Below, piece after piece: positions 1,408 to 2,279 of a stretch of 64,000 bases of DNA. The DNA is taken from the NCBI RefSeq assembly GCF_001720135.1, contig NZ_MCRJ01000001.1:1-64000 (forward strand), read 5' to 3'. A program made the translations under genes and the position numbers. Numbering within the stretch: position 1 is the stretch's first letter; every line of letters starts with the position of its first letter. The notes below the pieces were generated by a model. It was given only the letters and a program-made list of their open reading frames with translations, searched no databases and was not told the origin of the DNA. Source of the stretch: Methylobrevis pamukkalensis (GTDB lineage: Bacteria; Pseudomonadota; Alphaproteobacteria; Rhizobiales; Pleomorphomonadaceae).

Positions 1408-1905
1408 TCAGGGCAGGATCTCGATCGGGGTGCCATCGCGCACCAGATTCCAGATCTCGTCCATCTCGGCATTGGTCACCGCGATGCAGCCGTCGGTCCA
1501 GTCGAAGCTCTGGAGCAGGCCGCCGGCCCAGCCGAAGCCGTTGCGCTGGCCGTGGATCATGATCATGCCGCCGGGATCTTCACCGCGCGATCGCGCCGCG
1601 GCGACGTCCCGGGCGTCCGGATAGGAGACGTGGATCGAGCGATGGTAGGCGCTCTCCGCGTTGCGCCAGTCGAGGATGTAGCGGCCTTCCGGCGTCCGGC
1701 CGTCCCCCTCGCGGCGCTTGTGGCCGATCGGATCGCCGCCGAGCACGACGGGGTAGGATCTGACGACGTCGGTGCCGCGCAGAAGCTCCAGCCGCCGCTC
1801 CGCCTTCAGCACGCGGACGGCGTCGACCACCTCGCCGGCAAAGCCCAGCCCGGCCGCAAGCAGCAGGATCAGAAGCAGGCCGGACAGGCGCGCGAGGGGC
1901 ATCAT
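1408..1905 (-). CDS. L,D-transpeptidase (YkuD family), secreted
   Basis: A 165-residue exported protein with a hydrophobic signal segment at residues 5-23 ending in AGLGFAGE. It is followed by a YkuD-type catalytic domain. The catalytic pattern is present: His118 in MIHGQ and Cys140 in [10 protein letters not shown], which is the family HG-x(n)-S/T-x-GC signature with Ala in place of the common Arg after GCI. Such enzymes form 3-3 peptidoglycan cross-links or attach proteins to the wall in the periplasm; which of these it does cannot be told from sequence. A second Met follows the first directly. It precedes dapF in the same orientation. Confidence 0.88.
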
Positions 1906-1990
1906 GGAAGAGCGATCACCGGAAATCCGACTTTCTCCGTGGTGGTGCGCCGGCAGATCGTCACTGTGACGGGATCATTTCAAAACGCAA

Positions 1991-2020
1991 GAAGGGCCGC
2001 CCGTCGTCGGGCAGCCCTTC
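1991..2020 (-). terminator. Terminator-like hairpin after the small ORF
   Basis: Two 12-base arms, differing from perfect pairing at one G-T position, enclose a six-base loop. On the minus strand they are followed by TTGCGTTTT. It sits about 30 bp downstream of the 24-codon frame and about 85 bp upstream of the L,D-transpeptidase start, so it would end a separate short transcript. Confidence 0.6.
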
Positions 2021-2052
2021 CATTGCCGACCGCAGTGATGCGGGGAAATCGC

Positions 2053-2127
2053 TCAGACGGCACGCTCGCGAGAGGCGAACGTGTCAACCGCGATGACCAG
2101 CACCTGCGGATACGAACAATGAGACAC
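2053..2127 (-). CDS. Candidate 24-aa leader peptide or small protein
   Basis: A GTG-initiated 24-codon frame ending in TGA, reading roughly (M)SHCSYPQVLVIAVDTFASRERAV in two parts: a polar start SHCSYPQ, a hydrophobic core VLVIAVDTF and a charged tail ASRERAV. It is supported by an exceptional ribosome-binding site seven bases upstream and by flanking terminators that isolate it from both neighbours. No runs of a single amino-acid codon suggest classical attenuation. The function is unknown. It could instead be non-coding RNA whose Shine-Dalgarno-like segment acts in another way. Confidence 0.4.
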   Translation of the reverse strand: MSHCSYPQVLVIAVDTFASRERAV

Positions 2128-2130
2128 TGG

Positions 2131-2142
2131 ATCACCTCCTTT
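2131..2142 (-). promoter_or_regulatory. Extended Shine-Dalgarno sequence, full match to 16S 3' end
   Basis: On the minus strand AAAGGAGGTGAT lies seven bases (counted from AGGAGG) before the GTG of the small frame. Including flanks, 17 bases (2127-2143) are complementary to the usual 3' end of 16S rRNA. Most genes in this window have only four to five such bases, so this site is unusual. Confidence 0.6.
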
Positions 2143-2279
2143 CGATACGTTGACGACACCGAAAGCCTAGCGCTGATTCGGCGTGTCGCGAAGCCCTCTT
2201 TTTCGTCATTTGCTGCCTGTCACATGTGCAGCGCATGGATCGCGGAAACACTGGCCTGAGGCCCGGCCCAAACGACAAC

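Follow-up and report, generated by a model that had tools for sequence, protein, structure and literature searches.

The unit described here lies on the minus strand of the window, the whole stretch of 64,000 nucleotides of Methylobrevis pamukkalensis DNA that was analysed. It is flanked by acnA and, ∼85 nt downstream of its terminator, by a gene at 1408-1905 (-) for a YkuD-domain L,D-transpeptidase-like protein (Pfam PF03734). Its parts are collected in Table 1.

Table 1. Features of the CC2171 unit, in coordinates of the window.
Feature	Position	Strand	Basis or remark
-35-like hexamer CTTCGC	2188..2193	-	most relatives have a -35/-10 pair with the same spacing to the start codon
-10-like hexamer TAGGCT	2164..2169	-	candidate promoter
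RF01867 (CC2171) match	1993..2151	-	full-length covariance match
Extended RBS GAAAGGAGGUGAUCCAG	2127..2143	-	complement of 17 nt of the 16S 3' end; duplex -31.0 kcal/mol
24-codon frame MSHCSYPQVLVIAVDTFASRERAV	2053..2127	-	GTG start, TGA stop; open frame kept in relatives
P1a 5' strand CAUUGUU	2115..2121	-	codons 3-5; comparison and fold; outer helix of Rfam structure
P1b 5' strand CCGCAG	2104..2109	-	the ACCTGCGG word of the preliminary description; pair probabilities 0.80-0.99
16S-tail mimic (anti-SD) CUGGUCAUC	2092..2100	-	predicted to pair with GGUGA(U)CCAG of the RBS, 9 pairs and one bulge
P1b 3' strand CUGCGG	2030..2035	-	comparison and fold
P1a 3' strand GGCAAUG	2021..2027	-	adjoins the 5' side of the terminator; comparison and fold
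Intrinsic terminator hairpin	1990..2021	-	14 pairs; terminator scan

The most conspicuous feature is the ribosome-binding site (RBS). On the plus strand its 17 bases read CTGGATCACCTCCTTTC and match exactly the 3' terminus of genuine alphaproteobacterial 16S genes, as a preliminary description of this DNA had recognised; the 16S genes of relatives L321 and L322 both end in ...AACCTGCGGCTGGATCACCTCCTTTCTAAGG (...CTGCGGCTGGATCACCTCCTTTCTAAGG). These ends were taken from relatives, and a search of this genome's assembly (4.38 Mb) found no 16S gene. The minus strand carries GAAAGGAGGTGATCCAG, followed by GTG and 24 codons. The 14-mer GGATCACCTCCTTT occurs only once in the 4.38 Mb, in the window, where ∼0.03 occurrences are expected; this expectation, class-wide conservation and the empty reversed-pattern control given below rule out a chance match to the 16S end. 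An rRNA gene fragment was likewise rejected, since only 17 bases match, they lie on the opposite strand and the window holds no rRNA match. The second 16S-end word proposed earlier, at 2102-2109, is not meaningful as such: its CTGCGG (2104-2109) is a strand of the conserved long-range helix described below.

The preliminary description knew of no matching named family, and in this it was mistaken. An Rfam covariance search aligned the unit to all 159 positions (1-159) of RF01867 (CC2171) at 76.3 bits, a score that barely exceeds the gathering cut-off of 75 bits. The CC2171 sRNA is reportedly to be credited to Landt et al. 2008. Rfam records it as a Caulobacter sRNA, under the type sRNA. The family member in C. 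crescentus NA1000 is probably CCNA_R0051, judging from map position and gene numbering only. CCNA_R0051 is a 209 nt sRNA with its own promoter, lies between CCNA_02253 and CCNA_02254 and rises 4.4-fold after long mitomycin treatment, a non-specific response (PMC6237742); it also appears in a list of G1-expressed genes (PMC5988900). What is already known is therefore the sequence family itself, catalogued in Rfam, and what is new is the proposed mechanism.

Infernal-type searches found the family widely in Alphaproteobacteria. RF01867 is present in 26 of 60 relatives and, at E<=0.001, in 97 of 389 Alphaproteobacteria genomes, only 16 of which exceed the gathering cut-off. That cut-off thus misses most members, and the model is a candidate for rebuilding or for splitting by class. 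The pattern AAAGGAGGTGRTCNNDTGTC was matched in 72 of 290 alphaproteobacterial genomes, as a single copy except in G068 (two copies), and its reversed control gave 0 matches in the same 290 genomes. Of 199 genomes drawn from across the phylum, 40 carry the pattern, and all 40 are Alphaproteobacteria. An exact pattern of 27 bases matched at least 120 DNA stretches, from genera that include Bosea, Methylobacterium, Microvirga, Brevundimonas, relatives of Roseomonas, and Acidisoma. A phage collection gave no matches to the unit, and a plasmid collection gave four short alphaproteobacterial plasmid matches. Some genomes (e.g. G068, G365, G371, G607 and G608) contain a second RF01867 match. The comparisons below draw on ∼230 distinct relatives across Alphaproteobacteria, in which the unit is usually single copy; the pairing and frame claims are comparative, and related sequences inflate their statistics even after thinning.

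Comparison indicates that the unit is an independent small transcript with its own promoter, terminator, near-maximal RBS and maintained frame, as first suggested. In 116 of 169 relatives, a -10-like hexamer ends 35-38 nt upstream of the start codon, and because this spacing is kept, the candidate promoter of the window is not a chance match. Transcription would start near 2157, ∼30 nt upstream of the start codon. At the other end, the hairpin that had been placed at 1991-2020 was recovered by the terminator scan, and a similar terminator-like hairpin lies 3' of the unit in 165 of 168 relatives. The scan did not call a terminator at 2280-2302, where a hairpin ending acnA had been proposed. The same layout recurs in nearly every unit: a promoter ∼36 nt 5' of the start codon, the RBS, a short frame and a terminator. 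The minus-strand RNA is also unusually structured, with a better fold than all 200 shuffles (z = -4.4).

The genomic neighborhood, by contrast, is not conserved. Flanking genes differ in nearly all relatives, and the most recurrent neighbour gene family reaches at most 23 of 174 loci. The transpeptidase gene was found beside the unit in no locus of another genome tested, and acnA flanks it in only two other loci. The position of the transpeptidase-like gene, on the same strand and a short distance behind the terminator, might suggest a leader or attenuator of that gene, or the unit might be read-through from acnA. Both are hardly credible: the shuffled neighborhood offers no conserved co-oriented downstream gene, and the unit has its own promoter at a fixed position. 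The earlier idea of a leader peptide for a neighbouring gene accordingly found no support, and read-through from acnA, the outcome that would have undone the idea of a separate gene, is rejected on the same two grounds.

A frame directly behind the site, as had been described for the window, is present in 55 of 55 units of the first set and in nearly all later ones. It mostly spans 20-27 codons: most units, of the MSHC type, have 21-26 codons, two other clades have 18, and a clade whose genomes measure 7-9 Mb has 14. Among non-redundant units, the first 18 codons of frame 0 contain no stop in 168 of 171 (102/103 of the MSHC type and 66/68 others), while the other two frames are open over this length in 59 and 86 of the 103 and in 26 and 24 of the 68. 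The stop position is fixed although three codons serve it (TGA 128, TAA 53, TAG 42), and the start codons GTG, ATG and TTG interchange. Given the large excess of open frame 0 and the constant stop position, a frame of such length is maintained; the short frame is under selection to stay open, as befits a dual-function sRNA or mini-mRNA. Both the frame and the 16S-like word are thus conserved in relatives.

These data bear on the existing view of the family as a purely structural non-coding sRNA, in which the frame is unused and the strong site only pairs with 16S rRNA or other RNAs. Rfam and the Caulobacter annotations describe it as non-coding (PMC6237742, PMC5988900), and its strong fold and weak peptide selection fit such a role. 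In passages of a Caulobacter ribosome-profiling study, ncRNA regions are summarised as untranslated, and its text also states, without giving names, that two earlier ncRNAs are translated (PMC4117421). Against an unused frame stand the excess of open frame 0, a stop position kept with three different stop codons and a start codon that always has the usual spacing from the site, and we regard this view as unlikely.

Selection on the encoded amino acids is a different matter. In 45 independent close pairs, the synonymous to non-synonymous ratio is 1.21 times the neutral expectation in frame 0, compared with 0.76 and 1.09 in the other two frames, and substitutions fall evenly over the codon positions (146/168/151). 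Codon-level conservation is therefore weak though not absent, and amino acids beyond the first few appear nearly unconstrained. No Pfam or NCBIfam family matches the peptide. The peptides are not hydrophobic either: the median best 15-residue Kyte-Doolittle mean is 0.61, and 4.7% exceed 1.6.

The conserved content inside the frame is, on this comparison of sequences, RNA: a putative mimic of the 16S tail that would pair with the unit's own RBS and is kept when the frame shifts. The apparent peptide motif TWILAS corresponds to RNA ACCUGGAUCCUCGCCUC, which is complementary to the unit's own site GAGGUGAUCCAG. The element GGAGCARCC of class 2 occurs in all three reading frames (17/10/2), and CTGG[AG] of class 1 is distributed 107/9/5 over them. 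By inspection, opposite frameshifts in the Bosea units L058 and L064 leave CCTGGACT and the stop unchanged, and in L015 and L020 the RNA element persists despite a frame shift relative to other class-2 units. In the clade with 7-9 Mb genomes (L014, L283), the 14-codon frame MSYLKRCHLAGIAR still contains the mimic.

It is in this light that a functional micropeptide must be judged, that is, an mRNA translated with very high efficiency into a conserved peptide of 21-26 residues (MSHC...TW[IL][VL]AS...). An always open frame, with interchanging ATG, GTG and TTG starts and a fixed stop, and the recognisable motifs MSHC, TWILAS and EQP would suit such a product. These motifs, however, coincide with the RNA pairing element, which survives frame shifts, and there is no clear synonymous excess. 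The low excess and the RNA element kept across frames weaken the case for a conserved peptide as the main product, and the very highly translated micropeptide envisaged earlier is not borne out, given so little purifying selection on amino acids; its probability is low.

Pairing between site and mimic was supported by several measures. Duplex energies between the site and the frame body have a mean z of -1.55 against codon shuffles and -1.93 against base shuffles, compared with -0.11 for upstream DNA and -0.33 for post-frame DNA. With dinucleotide shuffles of thinned sets, z was -1.58 (n=103) and -1.28 (n=68), with upstream DNA at about -0.2. Standard pairs fill 84% of site:mimic cells in 105 non-redundant units versus 28-47% when the alignment is slid, and where the mimic varies, it does so mainly by C/T and A/G changes that leave its pairing with the invariant site intact. 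One clade has its mimic 3' of the frame, where it covaries with the site: L215 has the mimic GATCCCACCTCCTTA, L216 has GGACCATCTCC for a GGTGGTCC site, and L228 has GCACCTCC for a GGAGGTGC site; changes in one strand are matched in the other in both L216 (GGUGGUCC:GGACCAUCUCC) and L228 (GGAGGUGC:GCACCUCC). The window's own unit is a weaker case (z -0.8): its mimic:site duplex reaches -10.6 kcal/mol, far weaker than the duplex of site and 16S, and the predicted fold of its own RNA leaves the RBS largely accessible, which counts against a lock.

A mimic of this kind, an internal element that bears CCUC and often sits in a hairpin loop, could also act elsewhere, as part of a trans-acting sRNA that pairs with the RBSs of other mRNAs. 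RBS pairing with other mRNAs has been proposed for the alphaproteobacterial anti-SD sRNAs SisA-D/alpha-r8 (PMC12559287), and the element resembles anti-SD seeds; in the alignment, many members show a local hairpin around it. As the main structure this hairpin is weak (54% of cells paired versus 38-50% when slid). The element matches the extended complement of its own site well beyond CCUCC and covaries with that site in one clade, which makes action in trans quite improbable. The anti-SD-like stretch is common to the CC2171 unit, alpha-r8/SisA-D (PMC12559287) and SmelA075/A099 (PMC3927594), but for those sRNAs no strong RBS with a frame of its own is described, whereas the CC2171 anti-SD matches its own extended site. 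A separate hairpin was seen just 5' of the stop codon in the L275-L281 clade (6-Mb genomes), as GGAGAG-CAGU-CUCUCC or GGGAAG-CAGU-CUUCCC with matching changes.

Codons 3-8 pair with the bases just 5' of the terminator to form a long-range helix. Its outer part, P1a, has the family consensus CAUUGUC (codons 3-5):GACAAUG and is paired in 94% of cells versus 22-56% when slid; distant clades keep it with other sequences, such as CAUGGUUCAGC:GCUGACCAUG in L179 and CACCAAA:UUUGGUG in L037, and it is also kept in L191. The inner part, P1b (CCGCGG:CCGCGG), is paired in 71% of cells versus 33-43% when slid. Double changes number 48, compared with 30-56 in slid versions, and because one slid version reaches 56, it is the paired fraction that supports P1b. 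In the fold predicted for the window's own unit, 5 of 7 P1a pairs and 6 of 6 P1b pairs have probabilities of 0.8-0.99.

Comparison with Rfam separates the known from the proposed. The full-length covariance match extends to structure: the consensus outer helix of RF01867 (CAUUGUC:GACAAUG) and its terminal hairpin were both found, and P1a is that outer helix. In the Rfam structure as printed by cmscan, the RBS takes part only in a two-pair local hairpin, with neither the mimic, its pairing with the site, nor P1b. Also absent from the Rfam description are the promoter-site-frame-terminator layout and the crossing of the putative helices. With the site 5' of P1 and the mimic within P1, the site:mimic and P1 pairings cross; the two may form a predicted pseudoknot, or act as two alternative or successive locks.

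Together, these features suggest a stand-alone mini-mRNA/sRNA that would switch between a closed form and a form opened by the ribosome, a reading that we favour and, with modest confidence, consider probable. When free, the site could bind 17 bases of the 16S tail; in the closed form, the in-frame mimic would cover the RNA's own RBS, and the long-range helix, which starts six bases into the frame, would join the frame start to the 3' end and close the molecule. A 30S subunit would compete with the mimic for the RBS and, on winning, open the long-range helix, and translation of the ∼24 codons would clear mimic and helix up to the stop codon. The RNA would then exist either closed or opened and ribosome-bound. 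Selection would act on the switch and on translation as such rather than on the peptide, and the output would be the open or closed state of the RNA, through its stability or its access for other RNAs. Family membership, the unit's own promoter and terminator, the open frame, weak amino-acid constraint and the two pairings come from comparison; translation, interconversion of the forms and an output in RNA availability rather than peptide are what we infer. Among the readings offered in the preliminary description, an RNA acting through its RBS sequence is the best supported.

The closest mechanistic analogue would be the control of type I toxin mRNAs. In Helicobacter pylori, the AapA3 toxin mRNA is masked co-transcriptionally by an in-frame anti-SD before a 5'-3' interaction forms (PMC6733600). 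Like AapA3, the CC2171 unit is a stand-alone short-frame mRNA with an in-frame anti-SD and a long-distance 5'-3' interaction, so that SD sequestration by an anti-SD and a 5'-3' interaction, both marks of type I toxin mRNAs, are predicted here too. The same control logic, with a small peptide and sequestration of its own site, could make CC2171 itself a type I toxin mRNA (PMC6733600). This is very improbable: unlike a toxin of this type, its peptide is neither hydrophobic nor conserved, and the unit is class-wide and usually single-copy. We know of no antisense antitoxin for the CC2171 unit. Another point of comparison is rnTrpL/peTrpL of Sinorhizobium meliloti, a dual-function attenuator sRNA (PMC10117765), which shares with CC2171 its small size, a short frame (translated in rnTrpL), a terminator and an alphaproteobacterial host. 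It differs in preceding trpE and in being leaderless, whereas CC2171 combines an extreme RBS with the lack of any conserved gene downstream.

A more speculative extension of the switch, to which we assign a low probability, is that CC2171, which bears a mimic of the 16S 3' tail as well as its full complement, serves as a class-wide sensor of free 30S subunits, opening when initiation-competent subunits are in excess and closing when they are scarce, with the translated or the closed form acting on other RNAs. If true, the family would act as a natural gauge or sink for free small ribosomal subunits, in bacteria among which Caulobacter has no Shine-Dalgarno site at most of its genes (75.4%, PMC4117421). 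More broadly, the comparison makes a long-catalogued and widely kept alphaproteobacterial family a testable object, with three predictions: competition between the 16S tail and its internal copy, a frame whose peptide is nearly irrelevant, and a lock helix over the frame start.

The 5' module of the unit also occurs in front of a different frame. In L284 and L286 (Azospirillum plasmids), L230, L242 and L187, the site, mostly followed by ATGTCTCATGG, precedes a frame of 55-59 residues with a signal-peptide-like N-terminus (MSHGASPVVAALFGLATLLTAGIANADC...). In A. oryzae, the strand opposite this frame is annotated instead, with a hypothetical protein (WP_174757059.1). The longer frame may encode a secreted protein or a lipoprotein derived from the CC2171 unit.
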